Assembly: GCA_030682835.1 (NCBI GenBank)
Contig: JAUXNG010000012.1
Span: forward strand, 44,184-108,183
Direction of reading: 5' to 3'
Length of the DNA stretch: 64,000 nucleotides
Source of the DNA: Hydrogenophaga sp.
GTDB taxonomy: Bacteria > Pseudomonadota > Gammaproteobacteria > Burkholderiales > Burkholderiaceae_C
In this document: piece after piece, positions 3,642 to 11,354 of the stretch
Layout: every line of letters begins with the position of its first letter
Numbering within the stretch: the first letter of the stretch is position 1
Program-made: the position numbers and the translations under genes
The notes under the pieces: generated by a model
Databases searched by the model: none
What the model was told of the DNA's origin: nothing
Seen by the model: the letters and a program-made list of their open reading frames with translations, nothing else

Positions 3642-4271
3642 TTACACCAGCCCGTTGCGGATGGCGTAGACCGTGAGTTCGGCGTTGTTGCCCAGGTGCA
3701 GCTTTTCCAGCACGCGCGCGCGGTAGACGCTCACCGTCTTGGGGCTGAGCATGAGATCTTCGGCGATCTCGGAGAGCTTGCGGCCCGAGGCGATCTTCTG
3801 CAGCGTCTGCAGCTCGCGCTCGGACAGGCTGGCGTGCAGTTCCTCGCTCTCCGGTGCGTTGAGGTTGTCCACCAGCATCTGCGCCACCTCGGCGGTGACG
3901 TACTTGCGGCCCTGCATCACGGTGCGGATGGCGTTCACCAGCTCGGCCGGGTCGCCGGCCTTGTTCACATAACCGCGCGCACCGGCCCGCAGGCAGCGGA
4001 TGGCGTACTGGTCTTCCGGGTACATCGAGACCACCAGCGTCTTCACCGGCGAGCCCTCTTCGCGCAGCGCACCGAGCACCTCCAGGCCGCCACGGCCGGG
4101 CATGTTCAGGTCGAGCAGGAGCACGTCGCAGGTGTTCTTGCGCAGCTGCTCGCGCAGTTCGGGGTAGTTGCCCGCTTCGCCCACGACCTGGATGTCCACC
4201 GCCTCGGAAATGGTGTCGCGCACCCCGCGACGCACCACGGCGTGGTCATCACACAAAATCACCTTGATCAT
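3642..4271 (-). CDS. NarL/FixJ-family response regulator (REC + LuxR HTH)
   Basis: MIKVILCDDHAVVRRGV...LLLDLNMPGRGGLEVL; C-terminal LSERELQTLQKIASGRKLSEIAEDLMLSPKTVSVYRARVLEKL. Confidence 0.95.
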   Translation of the reverse strand: MIKVILCDDHAVVRRGVRDTISEAVDIQVVGEAGNYPELREQLRKNTCDVLLLDLNMPGRGGLEVLGALREEGSPVKTLVVSMYPEDQYAIRCLRAGARGYVNKAGDPAELVNAIRTVMQGRKYVTAEVAQMLVDNLNAPESEELHASLSERELQTLQKIASGRKLSEIAEDLMLSPKTVSVYRARVLEKLHLGNNAELTVYAIRNGLV

Positions 4272-5397
4272 CTTTTTCCTCCTGTTCCATCATCGCACCG
4301 TCTGACCCGATGCCCGCCCCCAGGGGGACCGACAGAATCACCGAGGTACCGCGCGGCGAGGAACTGATGTCCAGCCAGCCACCTACCTTGGCGGCGCGCT
4401 CGCGCAGGCCGAGCAGGCCGAACGACTTGGCCTTGCGCAGCGATTCAGCGTCCAGGCCCCGGCCGTTGTCGTTCACTTCCAGCGTGAGCACGCCTTCCTG
4501 GTCGCTCAGGTCGATGTCGACCGCGCTGGCCCGGGCGTGCTTGGCGACGTTGGTGAGGGATTCCTGCGCCGTGCGGTAGGCCACCAGCTGCACATCATGC
4601 GGCACGTCGATGGTTTCGGCCGAATACCGGACGGCCACCGGCAGGCCGTTGCGCCGCTCGAAACTGGACGCCAGCCACTGCACCGCGGCCACCAGGCCCT
4701 GGTCCAGAATCGGCGGGCGCAGGTTCATCATGATGCGCTGGCTGGCCTCCAGCGCGTGCTGCAGCATCTCCATGGCAGAGCCCACATGCTGCTGCACCTC
4801 GCCGCTGTCCACGTGGCGGCCCACCCAGGCCAGGTCGAGCTTCACCGCCGCCAGGGCACCGCCAATGTCGTCGTGGATCTCACGGGCGATGCTGGCACGC
4901 TCCTGCTCGATGCTGATCTGCAGGTGCTCGGCCAGCTCGGCCAGGCGCTGCCGCGATTCGGCCAGCTCGGCGTCTGCCCGGGCCTTGGCGTTGCGCGTGT
5001 CGGCCATTTCCAGCGCCCGCTGGATCACATGCGACAGCCGGTGCATGCTGTCCTTGAGCAGGTAGTCGCTCACGCCCTGGAGCATGGCCTCGACCGCCGC
5101 GGCCTCGCCGATGGCGCCCGACAGGATCACAAACGGCAGGTCGGGCCGTGCCTCGCGTGCGACCTGCCAGGCGTCCAGCCCGGTGAAGCCGGGCAGGTGG
5201 TAATCGGCCAGCACGATGTCGTACCGGCCTTCGGTCAGCTCCTGGGTGAAGTCTTCCATGGTGTCCACCAGCACCAGTTCGCAGAGCATCTGGCTGCGCT
5301 GCAGGGCGAACTTCACCAGGGCGTGGTCGACCCGGGAATCCTCCAGGTGGAGGATGCGGATCCCTGTCCGCTGTTCTGTCTCGGGGTTTCCGCTCAT
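4249..5397 (-). CDS. Response-regulator receiver fused to HisKA_3-type histidine kinase
   Basis: N-terminal REC (ILHLEDSRVDHALV..VLADYHLPGFTGLDAW), ERASIAREIHDDIGGALAAVKLDL kinase motif, NDNGRG ATPase; overlaps the regulator gene. Confidence 0.92.
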   Translation of the reverse strand: MSGNPETEQRTGIRILHLEDSRVDHALVKFALQRSQMLCELVLVDTMEDFTQELTEGRYDIVLADYHLPGFTGLDAWQVAREARPDLPFVILSGAIGEAAAVEAMLQGVSDYLLKDSMHRLSHVIQRALEMADTRNAKARADAELAESRQRLAELAEHLQISIEQERASIAREIHDDIGGALAAVKLDLAWVGRHVDSGEVQQHVGSAMEMLQHALEASQRIMMNLRPPILDQGLVAAVQWLASSFERRNGLPVAVRYSAETIDVPHDVQLVAYRTAQESLTNVAKHARASAVDIDLSDQEGVLTLEVNDNGRGLDAESLRKAKSFGLLGLRERAAKVGGWLDISSSPRGTSVILSVPLGAGIGSDGAMMEQEEKDDQGDFV

Positions 5398-5575: not shown

Positions 5576-6010
5576 ATGATGATGCCGCAGCCCGCTCCCT
5601 CGGTCACCCTGCCCGTGAATCTGGTCGCCGATCTGCAGGATTCGCTGCTGATGGCCATGACCGACCTGCAGCGGCTGGAAGGTCTGCTCGATCACGCCAC
5701 GTCCAACCTGCTCGAGCGCTTCGGTTCGGTGAACGAAGCGCTGAGCAACCTGCAGGAACAGCCGGGCGAAAACCTGGTGCCGATCCGCCTCAGCCTGCAC
5801 CAGGCCGTGACCGAGCTCCAGTTCCACGACATGGCCACCCAGCTCATCGTGCACACCGGCAAGGTGCTGCAGGGCTGCGCCTGGCGCCTGGCCGACGAAG
5901 CCATGGAGCGGGAGGAAGACGAGATCCCCTTCTGCATGGACCCCATGCCCGAACGCCCCAGTCCCGTCACACAAAGTGAGATGGACGCCGGTTCCATCGA
6001 GCTGTTCTGA
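5576..6010 (+). CDS. Short CheZ-like protein (putative CheY phosphatase)
   Basis: 144-aa helical protein directly upstream of cheY; ELQFHDMATQLI resembles the CheZ active-site helix (QDFQDLTGQVI), conserving D-x3-Q; C-terminal peptide GSIELF; RBS CCAGGA. Confidence 0.6.
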   Translation: MMMPQPAPSVTLPVNLVADLQDSLLMAMTDLQRLEGLLDHATSNLLERFGSVNEALSNLQEQPGENLVPIRLSLHQAVTELQFHDMATQLIVHTGKVLQGCAWRLADEAMEREEDEIPFCMDPMPERPSPVTQSEMDAGSIELF

Positions 6011-6068: not shown

Positions 6069-6431
6069 ATGCAATCGATTCTTGCCGTAGACGACTCGGC
6101 CTCCATGCGAAAAATGGTGTCGTTCACCCTGACGGGCGCGGGCTTTCACGTCGTGGAAGCGGTGGACGGTCAGGACGCTTTCGAAAAAGCCCAGATCCAC
6201 GCCATCGATCTGGTGCTGACCGACCAGAACATGCCCCGCCTCGACGGCCTGGGCCTGACCAAGAAGCTGCGCGAGCACCCCAAGTTCAAGAACACCCCCA
6301 TCCTGATCCTGACCACCGAGTCGAGCGACCAGATGAAGGCGGCAGGCCGCAGCGCCGGTGCCACGGGGTGGCTGGTCAAACCTTTTGATCCGGGTCGTCT
6401 GATCGAAGTCATCCAGAAGGTCATCCGCTGA
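6069..6431 (+). CDS. cheY: Chemotaxis response regulator CheY
   Basis: MQSILAVDDSASMRKMVSFTLTGAGFHVVEAVDGQDA..LVLTDQNMPRLDGLGL; single REC domain. Confidence 0.95.
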   Translation: MQSILAVDDSASMRKMVSFTLTGAGFHVVEAVDGQDAFEKAQIHAIDLVLTDQNMPRLDGLGLTKKLREHPKFKNTPILILTTESSDQMKAAGRSAGATGWLVKPFDPGRLIEVIQKVIR

Positions 6432-6485: not shown

Positions 6486-8636
6486 ATGGGTGAAATGATG
6501 AATGAAGGCCAGAACCTCGGCGACAACATCGACCTGAGCCAGTTCTACCAGATCTTCTTTGAAGAGGCTGGCGAGAACCTGGACCAGATGGAACAGATGC
6601 TGCTGCAGCTCGACCTGGAACAGGCCGACGACGAAGAACTGAACGCGATCTTCCGTTGCGCGCACTCCATCAAGGGCGGCGCCGCCACCTTCGGTTTTGC
6701 CGACGTGGCCGAGCTCACGCACCAGATGGAGTCGTTGCTGGACAAGCTGCGCCGCCACGAGCTGCAGCCCACGTCGGACATGGTCGACGTGCTGCTGGAG
6801 TCGTCGGACGCGCTGCGCCTGCTGCTTGCCCGCCACCAGGGCAAGAGCGTGGAACCACCGGCCACCGCAGCACTGGTGACGCGCATCAGCACGCTGGCCG
6901 AAGGCGGCCCGCTGAGCACGCAGGCCGTGGCACCCACCACGCTGGCCCAGGCCGCCGCACCCGCCGCTGCGAGCGCACCGGCACCGCGTACCCAGAAGGC
7001 CGGCCGATCGCTCGAAATCCACATCGGCCCGATGGACAACCCGGCGCAGGCAGATGGCATCGCCGAGCTGTTCCGTGACATCCCGGGCCTGGGCGAGCTG
7101 CAGGTGCTGCCCTGTGACCAGAGCGACAAGCGCATCTTCGGCGTGCAGACCACGTCGAGCGACACCGACCTGATGGACCTGTTCACCTTCCACGTGAGCA
7201 AGGAGATCATCCACATCGTCGACCTGTCGGTCGCCGAGGCTCCGCCCGTGGTGGCCGCACCCCCCGCCAAGCCCCGCGCCGTCGAAGGCCAGGACTTCGG
7301 CTTTTTCGACGACGCACCAGGCATGCCAGGCGCCGCCGCCGAGACGGCAGCGGCCGAAACGGCACCGGCGGTCGAGGTGGCTCAGCCGCCCGTGCCTGCC
7401 CCGGTTCCGGTGGCAGCGGCAGCTGCCGCAGCGCCGCGCGCCGAGCAGCGCCCGGCCAACCAGGCCCAGCTGGAGTCGAGCACGCTGCGCGTGTCGGTGA
7501 GCAAGGTCGACCAGCTGATCAACCTGGTGGGCGAACTCGTCATCACCCAGGCCATGCTGGCGCAGAAGAGCCGCGAGCTCGACAGCGCCGCCAACCAGCC
7601 CCTGCTCTCGGGCCTGGCCGACCTGGACCGCAACACCCGCGACCTGCAGGAAGCGGTGATGTCGATCCGCATGATTCCCATGTCGGTCGTGTTCAACCGC
7701 TTCCCGCGCATGCTGCGCGACCTGGCCAGCAAACTGGGCAAGAAGGTCGAGCTGATCACGCACGGCGAGGCCACCGAGCTGGACAAGGGCCTGATCGAGA
7801 AGATCACCGATCCGCTGACCCACCTGATCCGCAACAGCTGCGACCACGGCATCGAAATGCCCGACGAGCGCCGCGCCAAGGGCAAGACCGAGCACGGCAC
7901 CATCACGCTGTCGGCCACGCACCAGGGCGGCTCGATCCTGATCGAGGTGCGCGACGACGGCAAGGGCCTGTCGCGCGAGAAGCTGCTGAGCAAGGCCCGG
8001 GAAAAGGGCATCGACGCCCCCGACTCCATGAGCGACAGCGAGGTCTGGAACCTGATCTTCGCTCCGGGCTTCTCCACCGCCGCCGAGGTCACCGACGTGT
8101 CGGGCCGCGGCGTGGGCATGGACGTGGTCAAGCGCAACATCACCTCGCTGGGTGGCACGGTCGAGATCGACTCGGCCGAAGGCTACGGCATGCGCGTCTC
8201 GGTGCGCCTGCCGCTGACGCTGGCCATCATGGACGGCATGACGGTGCGCGTGAGCGACGAGGTCTACATCCTGCCGCTGTCCAGCGTGATCGAATCGTTC
8301 CAGATCAAGCCGGGCGACATCAACACGGTGGCCCAGGGCGCGCAGCTGGTGAAGGTGCGCGAGGAATTCATGCCGGTGATCGAACTGGAGCGCGTGTTCG
8401 ACGTGCCACGCTTCGAATACAACCCCAGCAGCCCCATCATGGTCGTGGTGGAAGCCGAGGGCGCGCGTGTGGCGCTGATGGTCGACGAGCTGCTCGGGCA
8501 GCAGCAGGTCGTCATCAAGAACCTGGAGTCCAACTACCGCAAGGTGCCCAACATCTCGGGCGCCACCATCCTGGGCGACGGCAAGGTGGCCCTGATCCTG
8601 GACACCTCGGGGCTGATCCGGCGCTCACGCCACTGA
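6486..8636 (+). CDS. cheA: Chemotaxis histidine kinase CheA
   Basis: Hpt motif IFRCAHSIKGGAATFGF; dimerisation, NSCDHGIE ATPase and CheW-like C-terminal domains. Confidence 0.98.
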   Translation: MGEMMNEGQNLGDNIDLSQFYQIFFEEAGENLDQMEQMLLQLDLEQADDEELNAIFRCAHSIKGGAATFGFADVAELTHQMESLLDKLRRHELQPTSDMVDVLLESSDALRLLLARHQGKSVEPPATAALVTRISTLAEGGPLSTQAVAPTTLAQAAAPAAASAPAPRTQKAGRSLEIHIGPMDNPAQADGIAELFRDIPGLGELQVLPCDQSDKRIFGVQTTSSDTDLMDLFTFHVSKEIIHIVDLSVAEAPPVVAAPPAKPRAVEGQDFGFFDDAPGMPGAAAETAAAETAPAVEVAQPPVPAPVPVAAAAAAAPRAEQRPANQAQLESSTLRVSVSKVDQLINLVGELVITQAMLAQKSRELDSAANQPLLSGLADLDRNTRDLQEAVMSIRMIPMSVVFNRFPRMLRDLASKLGKKVELITHGEATELDKGLIEKITDPLTHLIRNSCDHGIEMPDERRAKGKTEHGTITLSATHQGGSILIEVRDDGKGLSREKLLSKAREKGIDAPDSMSDSEVWNLIFAPGFSTAAEVTDVSGRGVGMDVVKRNITSLGGTVEIDSAEGYGMRVSVRLPLTLAIMDGMTVRVSDEVYILPLSSVIESFQIKPGDINTVAQGAQLVKVREEFMPVIELERVFDVPRFEYNPSSPIMVVVEAEGARVALMVDELLGQQQVVIKNLESNYRKVPNISGATILGDGKVALILDTSGLIRRSRH

Positions 8637-8670: not shown

Positions 8671-9552
8671 ATGCTGCTTCAGAACCGCCCCCCGCGCACC
8701 CCGGTAGCCGCCCCTGCCTTCGCCGAGGCAGAGGACGGCCCGCTGAGTCAGGGCCGTGAGTTCATCTGGAACGACGCGGACTTCACGCGCATCAAGAGCC
8801 TGATCTACAAGAAGGCCGGCATCAGCCTGCACGATGGCAAGCACGCCATGGTGTACAGCCGGGTCTCGCGCCGCCTGCGTGAAACCGGCCACGACAGCTT
8901 CCGCAGCTACCTCGACTGGCTCGAGCAGCACGACGGGGCCGAGTGGCAGGAGTTCATCAACGCGCTCACCACCAACCTCACCGCGTTCTTCCGCGAGCAG
9001 CACCACTTCACCATCCTGGACGAGCTGCTGCGCAGGGAACGCACGCGCGACTGGCGCATCTGGTGCTCGGCGGCGTCGACCGGCGAGGAACCCTATTCCA
9101 TCGCCATGACCGCCACCGAGGCGCTCGGCGCGGGGGGTTCGTTCCACATCGTCAACAGCGACATCGACACCAAGGTGCTGGCCACCGCCGCCCAGGGCGT
9201 CTACAAGGCCGACGGGGTGAAGGGACTGAGCCAGGAACGCCTGCAACGCTTCTTCATGCGCGGCAAGGGCAGCAACGCCGGCCTCATGCGCGTGAAGCCC
9301 GAGCTGCAGAAACACATGGCCTTCCAGGCCGTGAACCTGATCCACGACCTGCCGTTCCGCGAGCCGTTTGACGCCGTGTTCTGCCGCAACGTGATGATCT
9401 ATTTCGACGCCCCCACCCAGCGCCAGGTGCTGGAGCGCATCCACCGCGTGATGAAGCCCGGCGGCATGCTGTTCGTCGGCCATGCCGAAAACTTCAGCGA
9501 CGCCCGCAACCTGTTCGTTCTTCGCGGAAAGACGGTCTATGAACGCGTTTGA
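8671..9552 (+). CDS. cheR: Chemotaxis protein methyltransferase CheR
   Basis: NLTAFFREQHHFTILDELL; WCSAASTGEEPYSIAM SAM site; FDAVFCRNVMIYFD. Confidence 0.97.
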   Translation: MLLQNRPPRTPVAAPAFAEAEDGPLSQGREFIWNDADFTRIKSLIYKKAGISLHDGKHAMVYSRVSRRLRETGHDSFRSYLDWLEQHDGAEWQEFINALTTNLTAFFREQHHFTILDELLRRERTRDWRIWCSAASTGEEPYSIAMTATEALGAGGSFHIVNSDIDTKVLATAAQGVYKADGVKGLSQERLQRFFMRGKGSNAGLMRVKPELQKHMAFQAVNLIHDLPFREPFDAVFCRNVMIYFDAPTQRQVLERIHRVMKPGGMLFVGHAENFSDARNLFVLRGKTVYERV

Positions 9553-10207
9553 ATCCAGCCTCACCGCGAGCCGCTTTCCGAGCGCCCGCCGCACGTCGCA
9601 CATCGACGCCCTGAAAGCGCGCCCCCGCAAGCCGGGCGAGGCATCCTTTTTCTACCACGACCACCATTTCAAGCACGACTCGGTGAAGGTGCTGCCCGGC
9701 GAGTACTACGTCACCAACGAAGACATGATGGTGATGACGGTGCTGGGATCCTGCATCGCCGCCTGCCTGTGGGACCCCAAGGTCCGCGTCGGCGGCATGA
9801 ACCATTTCATGCTGCCCGAAGGTGGCGCCGACACCTCGGGGCGCTACGGTTCGTATGCGATGGAATTGCTGATCAACGAGATGATGAAGCTCGGCGCCCG
9901 GCGCGAGAGCATGCAGGCCAAGGTGTTTGGTGGTGGCCAGGTGATGCACACCTTCACCACCATGAACGTGGGCGAGCGCAACACCCAGTTCGTGCTGGAC
10001 TACCTCCAGACCGAGCGCATTGCCGTGATTTCCAAGGACGTGCTGGACATCCACCCGCGCAAGGTCTGCTACTTCCCCGTCACGGGCAAGGCGATGGTCA
10101 AGCGCCTGGCCCACTCGCACCCGGAAACGCTCGAAACCCAGGAACGCCGCGGCAACGCAGCCGCCGTCGCCAGCAGCACCTCGGGTGGCTCGGTCGACCT
10201 GTTTTGA
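9539..10207 (+). CDS. cheD: Chemoreceptor glutamine deamidase CheD
   Basis: VMTVLGSCIAACLWDPKVRVGGMNHFMLPEG catalytic Cys/His motif; KVFGGGQVM; C-terminus GGSVDLF; overlaps cheR end. Confidence 0.95.
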   Translation: MNAFESSLTASRFPSARRTSHIDALKARPRKPGEASFFYHDHHFKHDSVKVLPGEYYVTNEDMMVMTVLGSCIAACLWDPKVRVGGMNHFMLPEGGADTSGRYGSYAMELLINEMMKLGARRESMQAKVFGGGQVMHTFTTMNVGERNTQFVLDYLQTERIAVISKDVLDIHPRKVCYFPVTGKAMVKRLAHSHPETLETQERRGNAAAVASSTSGGSVDLF

Positions 10208-10259
10208 TCACTGGGAAGACCGGCGGATGGCCGGTCAGCGCGTCTGAAGGAGGATGAAA

Positions 10260-11354
10260 ATGTCAAAAATAAAAGTGGTGGTGGTGGACGACTCGGCGCT
10301 GGTGCGCAGCCTGCTCACCGAAATCATCAACCGCCAGCGCGACATGTGCTGCGTCGGCGCGGCCAGCGACCCGCTGGTGGCGCGCGAGATGATCCGCGAA
10401 CTCAACCCCGACGTGATCACGCTCGACGTGGAAATGCCCCGCATGGACGGACTGGAGTTCCTTTCGCGCCTGATGCGGCTGCGGCCGATGCCGGTGGTGA
10501 TGGTCTCCACTCTGACCGAACAGGGCGCCGAGATCACGCTGCGCGCACTGGAAATGGGCGCAGTGGACTTCGTGGCCAAGCCGCGCATCGGCATCAGCAG
10601 CGGCCTGAACGAACTCTCGGGTGACATCGTCGACAAGATCCGTGTGGCGGCCAGCGCCCATGTGAGCCGGCACCCAGGGCCGGCGGCCAGCACCGCGCAG
10701 ACGACCACCACACCGAGCACGCCCGCCGCGCCGCGCGCCCCGCTGCCCCGACTGTCGACCGAAAAAATCATCTGCATTGGCGCCTCGACCGGGGGCACCG
10801 AAGCGATCCGCGAGGTGCTCATGGAGATGCCGGCCGACGCGCCTGCCATCGTCATCACCCAGCACATGCCACCAGGCTTCACCACCAGTTTTGCCGCGCG
10901 GCTGAACTCGCTGTGCCGCATCCGGGTGGAAGAGGCGCGCGACGGCCAGCGCATCCTGCCCGGCCATGCCTACATCGCCCCGGGCGGGCGCCACCTGCGC
11001 ATCGACCGCAGCGGCTCCAACTACGTGGCCGTGGTCGAGGACACCGAACCGGTGAACCGCCACCGGCCTTCGGTGGAGGTGCTGTTTCGTTCCGCCGCGC
11101 GCGTGCTGGGCCCCAATGCGCTGGGCGTGATGCTCACCGGCATGGGTGCCGACGGTGCCCAGGCCATGCGCGAGATGAAAGACGCCGGCAGCTACAACTA
11201 TGTGCAGGACGAGGCCACCTGCGTGGTCTTCGGCATGCCGCGCATGGCCATCCAGAGCGGCGCGGCGCATGAAGTGCTGCCACTCAACCAGATCGCCAAC
11301 GCCCTGCTGACCCGCCTGGCCACCAGCCCGTCGGGCGTGCGCCACCGCATCTGA
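10260..11354 (+). CDS. cheB: Chemotaxis protein-glutamate methylesterase CheB
   Basis: REC + methylesterase: [56 protein letters not shown] upstream of second ATG. Confidence 0.97.

Follow-up and report, generated by a model that had tools for sequence, protein, structure and literature searches.

A stand-alone McpA-base protein with a CheZ-like DxxxQ motif, encoded directly upstream of the F7-type cheY of Hydrogenophaga

The che locus and gene X

The window, a 64,000-nucleotide stretch of DNA from Hydrogenophaga sp., contains a conserved series of che genes preceded by a gene for a 144-aa protein, here termed X. The features of this locus are listed below, with the evidence for each in brackets.

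5576..6010, + strand: gene X, 144-aa stand-alone McpA-base / CheZ-like protein (translation; more than 100 orthologues; no Pfam, NCBIfam or PDB match)
5615..5752, + strand: X helix 1, residues 14-59, motif DLxRLxxLLxxAxxNLxxRF (AlphaFold2 model; HMM match to N-terminal helices of McpA-like receptors)
5777..5902, + strand: X helix 2, residues 68-109, bearing LQFHDMATQ (AlphaFold2 model; motif invariant in the family)
5828..5830, + strand: X D85, counterpart of the CheZ catalytic Asp, E. coli D143 (100% invariant in 79 non-redundant relatives; hhalign register)
5840..5842, + strand: X Q89, counterpart of the CheZ catalytic Gln, E. coli Q147 (100% invariant; hhalign register)
5957..6007, + strand: X C-terminal tail PSPVTQSEMDAGSIELF, residues 128-144, presumed docking peptide (conservation; short helix 133-137 in a low-confidence part of the model)
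6069..6431, + strand: cheY1, F7-type CheY with phospho-site D52, orthologue of C. testosteroni CheY1 (Response_reg E=2.1e-27; 79/79 adjacency; D52/D56 numbering as in PMC6391922)
6486..8636, + strand: cheA (Hpt, H-kinase_dim, HATPase_c and CheW domains)
8671..9552, + strand: cheR (ORF; place in the conserved che operon order)
9482..10207, + strand: cheD ORF, with a C-terminus GGSVDLF resembling the X tail end AGSIELF (CheD PF03975 E=5e-31; tail scans)
10254..11354, + strand: cheB (ORF; position and conserved order)

The cheY1 gene likely begins at the ATG at 6069, 58 bp past the stop codon of X. The tight linkage of X to one cheY, remarked on in a first-pass annotation of this DNA, extends throughout Comamonadaceae: the same cheY lies directly downstream of X in all loci with enough flanking sequence (79/79), at a median gap of 63 bp to the tblastn match. 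Of 89 cheY1 orthologues from 200 genomes of the order, 28 directly follow X and 40 a longer gene, in most cases McpA-like (68 in all). This total is at least one too low, given that the profile missed the module upstream of cheY1 in locus L313; for about 20 orthologues, no adjoining module was detected. cheY1 is present in 19 of 19 X-positive genomes, and no comparable orthologue was found in 15 X-negative genomes, five of which carry both cheA and cheZ (both counts ignore kinship). Gammaproteobacterial loci judged to be Pseudomonas-like have the order McpA-like gene, cheY, cheA, in which the cheY shares 58-62% identity with that of the window; this arrangement fits the stage 2 F7 gene order, in which mcpA genes have moved to the front (PMC7184735).

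The CheY encoded beside X is distinct from that encoded beside canonical CheZ. The phospho-acceptor of the window CheY is D52 and that of the CheY adjoining canonical CheZ is D56; in C. testosteroni, the same residues are D52 in CheY1 and D56 in CheY2 (PMC6391922), and cheY1 (CtCNB1_0474) and cheA have consecutive locus tags. These residues match the window cheY to CheY1 and the cheY beside CheZ to CheY2. C. testosteroni CheY2 is the FliM-binding motor regulator; CheY1, which loses its phosphate rapidly by itself, is reported to act as a phosphate sink (PMC6391922, PMC6600141). The CheA of the window (6486-8636) has no match in Pfam to a CheY-binding P2 domain, though the region between its Hpt and dimerization domains is long. 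Divergent from X, on the - strand at 3642-5397, lie genes for a REC-HisKA_3-HATPase hybrid kinase and a LuxR-type response regulator, a pair retained in most Comamonadaceae loci.

Conservation of X and its resemblance to CheZ

Orthologues of X number more than 100 in Comamonadaceae, including Hydrogenophaga, Curvibacter, Comamonas, Tepidimonas, Diaphorobacter and others. Translation of 5576-6010 (+) confirms the CheZ-like DxxxQ motif and tail described in the first-pass annotation: ELQFHDMATQLI occupies residues 80-91, within which LQFHDMATQ (residues 81-89) places D85 and Q89 with three residues between them, and the C-terminal end reads ...PVTQSEMDAGSIELF, with the tail given as TQSEMDAGSIELF. 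The conservation of Asp and Gln in orthologues, named in that annotation as a test that could refute its reading, is complete in all relatives. Among 63 aligned X sequences D85 and Q89 do not vary and the tail is at least 90% conserved, and in 79 non-redundant members only six columns are fully invariant, namely those of Q-F-x-D-x3-Q, one tail Gly and the final Phe. Outside the X family, [LM]QFxDxxxQ occurs in three of 5778 ORFs of at least 100 aa (1.33 million residues of fetched loci); two of the three are antisense ORFs overlapping an X gene, and none is a recognized gene. This rarity indicates that the motif of X is more than a chance occurrence.

X has no useful match among Pfam-A, NCBIfam or PDB sequences, and no Pfam match to a CheC/CheX domain with ExxN motifs; hits to Tako8 and Rei in a profile search of the PDB were dismissed as short chance matches. 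AlphaFold2 (63-sequence alignment) predicts a helical hairpin, with helices at residues 14-59 and 68-109, the DxxxQ motif on the second, and pLDDT of about 80-91 in 10-residue blocks from 11 to 110. The tail is disordered in the model apart from a short helix at 133-137. In a Foldseek search of the PDB, this model matched generic helical hairpins, none with an E below 0.001, the two-helix fold being too simple to discriminate.

These features recall CheZ (PF04344; 1kmi_Z), in which a helical hairpin likewise bears FxDxxxQ on helix 2, a tail follows after a linker, and the gene adjoins a cheY. The E. coli motif used for comparison (maqdfqdltgqvi) was verified on chain 1kmi_Z. However, X is shorter than CheZ, has a different tail and a different partner CheY, lacks a significant profile match and coexists with CheZ. 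PF04344 gives no match to X at E<=10, and the sole match above the cut-off in a genome-wide search is a canonical cheZ about 22 kb upstream of X on the same contig. This gene encodes a 204-aa protein (E=4.8e-57) and adjoins its own cheY and flhB. Because a full CheZ is encoded elsewhere in the genome, X is not the CheZ of this organism, and a role as its sole CheZ is ruled out. Canonical CheZ was likewise found in 17 of 19 X-positive genomes of the same genus, the two without it being incomplete (80% and 92%), and in most of the 13 searched genomes of other families with X-like genes (over the whole profile in 11, partial in one, none in one, G201). In one genome (G123, contig C20, 154860-156435, - strand), canonical cheZ, X and cheY1 stand in tandem, indicating that X and CheZ are not alternatives to each other.

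Profile comparison places the Asp and Gln of X in register with the CheZ catalytic pair, though the match is weak. Aligned by hhalign, the wide X family and canonical CheZ superimpose D on D and Q on Q over 44 columns (E=0.0017, probability 15%), with a score of 26.4 against at most 20.4 in 150 column-shuffled controls and 17.0 in a reversed control. A profile built from Comamonadaceae alone was too shallow (probability 0.8%), and the match improved with the wider family. Sub-threshold PF04344 matches also fall in the corresponding region of two X relatives (L150, E=0.012; L149, E=0.016) and one McpA-type protein (L165, E=0.044). The resemblance of the catalytic helix to that of CheZ thus appears real but weak, and need not imply common descent with CheZ. 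The expectation that the tail would serve as a CheZ C-terminal peptide fared less well: an acidic/hydrophobic peptide is indeed conserved in X, but the canonical CheZ of this genome ends QQVDDLLASLGF, and TQSEMDAGSIELF is unlike the ...VDDLLxSLGF peptide of CheZ. The GS[IV][DE]LF part of the X tail instead recurs in McpA-like receptors and CheD. With no CheZ profile match, a normal CheZ in the same genome and McpA-like chemoreceptors as the nearest homologues of X, the proposal of a minimal or divergent CheZ is not upheld.

Relationship to McpA-like receptors and the shared tail

A wider profile search found family members in 134 of the 400 genomes searched within the order and in 64 of 398 across the phylum. 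These are short proteins and chemoreceptor-like proteins of ~330-460 aa that end with the same module; an MCP signalling domain is verified or evident in most of the longer ones. Ten proteins of ~330-365 aa from another class of the phylum (L221, L226, L228, L230-L232 and L234-L237) retain both LQFEDxxxQ and the tail; MCPsignal matches L236 but not L221, and no CheY1-like gene was found in the flanks of the ten. The long relatives are called McpA-like by domain, tail and gene order.

X is homologous to both helices that flank the signalling hairpin of McpA-like (CttP/PA0180-type) receptors. An HMM of X helix 1 matches the helix preceding the hairpin, which bears the motif LLxxAIxxLxxSF, at up to 32 bits (at most 3.9 bits in shuffled and reversed controls), though the scores of the most distant receptors do not exceed those of the controls. 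The helix following the hairpin belongs to a conserved C-terminal module, LQFxDxxxQ with a GxxxLF tail, that is common to X and the receptors; in all 28 receptors with a recognized hairpin tip, LQFxD starts exactly 107 residues after the tip motif. Like receptors of this type (CttP/PA0180 of P. aeruginosa and VCA1088 of V. cholerae being the named examples, not directly compared), X has both base helices, LQFxDxxxQ and a C-terminal PVxQxxMxxG[SDE][IV][DE]LF, and its gene lies directly upstream of F7 cheY-cheA, as in the stage 2 order (PMC7184735). It differs in having no transmembrane region and no part of the MCP signalling domain: PF00015 has no match in X and is present in L163, L165, L168, L222, L233 and L236, and at 144 aa X is presumably soluble.

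As both helices and the tail match McpA-like receptors, and the gene occupies the mcpA-like place upstream of an F7 cheY, X can be described as a 'headless McpA'. By this comparison, it appears to be an McpA-like receptor without the transmembrane part and signalling hairpin, with the two base helices and tail left. In a tree of the module, one branch (SH-aLRT 95) has 30 of the 32 stand-alone proteins on the same side, suggesting, within the limits set by short columns and long branches, that the stand-alone forms are mostly of one origin. Because the receptor form is widely distributed, the direction of change is likely from receptor to stand-alone protein. Ortega et al. (2020) reported that the C-terminus of McpA is strikingly conserved, with a role that is important yet unclear, that cheZ occurs with F6 systems only, and that mcpA has been lost from betaproteobacterial F7 clusters (PMC7184735).

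The tail also links X to CheD. Three Hydrogenophaga genomes were scanned for ORFs ending [IVM][DE][LF]F; in each of them, X and CheD were the members of this set that belong to recognized chemotaxis genes. All 64 Comamonadaceae CheDs examined end [ST][IV][DE]LF. CheDs of another class have similar ends, some with a few extra residues after them. The CheD end of the window (10187-10207) and of related loci, in Comamonadaceae and this other class, conforms to G[SDE][IV][DE]LF, as do those of X and McpA-like receptors. This sequence is apparently an undescribed docking peptide shared by CheD, X and McpA-like receptors, and suggests that the three have a common partner. The P. aeruginosa McpA tail does not bind CheR (PMC7184735), making a CheR-tether role for tails of the McpA type unlikely. 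A separate resemblance, and no more than that, links TQSEMDA of the X tail to LSQEEVDALL, at the N-terminus of FliM in this genome, and to QQVDDLL, at the C-terminus of CheZ. In E. coli, the FliM N-terminus and CheZ C-terminus bind CheY.

Probable function and significance

Two further systems with a DxxxQ motif are comparable to X. The DxxxQ helix of NarX-type HisKA_3 kinases acts on receiver aspartyl phosphate. Such sensor kinases resemble X in carrying an Asp/Gln pair at i and i+4 on a helix, the DxxxQ phosphatase motif, but X has neither a kinase domain nor a conserved His. The second is CheT of S. meliloti, which targets the sink CheY1. CheT has a DxxxQ motif, is active on just one of the two CheYs and also binds CheR (PMC12654446). 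Like X, CheT of S. meliloti and Agrobacterium is a small protein encoded in a che operon, with DxxxQ and no clear sequence relation to CheZ (PMC12654446). The likeness to X is by description, and CheT differs in binding CheR and in having no reported McpA relationship; no CheT candidate was found beside cheD in 18 loci (17 genomes) of another class.

X is most likely a headless McpA that serves as a dedicated CheY1-P phosphatase, to which we assign a probability of roughly 0.6, with CheY1-P dephosphorylation the most economical function suggested by its sequence and gene context. X would derive from the McpA-like chemoreceptor whose gene heads ancestral F7 clusters, having lost the transmembrane part and a signalling hairpin of ~200 residues while retaining the two flanking base helices and the conserved C-terminal tail. 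The helix pair would form a hairpin as in CheZ, probably dimerizing into a four-helix bundle, and X would use its tail to dock on another chemotaxis protein, most likely the adjacently encoded F7 CheY, CheY1. D85 may then orient, and Q89 position, the water that attacks the aspartyl phosphate of CheY1-P. X would thereby be dedicated to the phosphate-sink CheY1, with canonical CheZ probably serving the motor-binding CheY2. Given that C. testosteroni CheY1-P decays fast unaided (PMC6391922), the need for such a phosphatase is not obvious. In a search of open-access literature, neither X nor a phosphatase function of McpA-like receptors was found described.

The main rival casts X as a non-catalytic docking or localization factor that uses its conserved motif and tail to bind CheY1, CheD or some other Che protein and so position it at the array. 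This is unlikely, yet a serious contender: the tail end is common to CheD and McpA, so that its partner may be other than CheY1; the base of a chemoreceptor is a natural tethering site; and S. meliloti CheT also binds CheR (PMC12654446). However, a docking role leaves unexplained an i/i+4 Asp/Gln pair that is invariant in 79/79 members while neighbouring positions vary. An improbable variant of the phosphatase reading directs X to the motor CheY2 or to another receiver, for example that of the divergent REC-HisKA_3/LuxR pair, which is retained beside X in most loci. A review mentions an unpublished, additional CheZ-like gene in C. testosteroni (CtCNB_4786), described as a quencher (PMC6600141). 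Its tag number does not fall next to that of cheY1 (CtCNB1_0474), though judged by the tag alone it may still be X. Against this variant, CheY2 has its own CheZ, and no partner other than the F7 cheY is conserved both across families and in gammaproteobacteria.

Descent of X from canonical CheZ, as a highly diverged, shortened orthologue or duplicate, is disfavoured as very improbable. The DxxxQ register, the hairpin and the weak PF04344 matches of relatives are in keeping with it, but both helices and the tail align with McpA-like receptors rather than CheZ, the tail is not the CheZ peptide, and canonical CheZ coexists with X, directly beside it in G123. Histidine phosphotransfer through H84 of an LHD-like motif, hinted at by a weak HisKA_3 match in one relative (L031, E=0.016), is rejected, since position 84 is Q, E or G in most relatives.

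The reading of X as a CheY1-P phosphatase extends to the receptors from which it appears to derive. The only invariant residues of the X/McpA-like family are the CheZ-like Asp/Gln pair, the flanking Gln-Phe and two tail residues. This reading suggests that the conserved C-terminus of these receptors, hitherto unexplained, acts as a CheZ-type CheY phosphatase. It is tentatively proposed, at somewhat less than even odds, that ancestral F7 systems, thought to lack CheZ, carry their phosphatase in the base of an McpA-like receptor, and that loss of the signalling hairpin in Comamonadaceae and allied families released this base from its receptor, to persist as a 144-aa enzyme acting on the F7 CheY (CheY1). 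In contrast to the reported loss of mcpA (PMC7184735), full McpA-like genes, or the base alone, still adjoin the F7 cheY in many Burkholderiales. McpA-like receptors would thereby gain a concrete, testable function and the F7 CheY a candidate 'off' switch, and a receptor may shrink to an enzyme by losing its centre.
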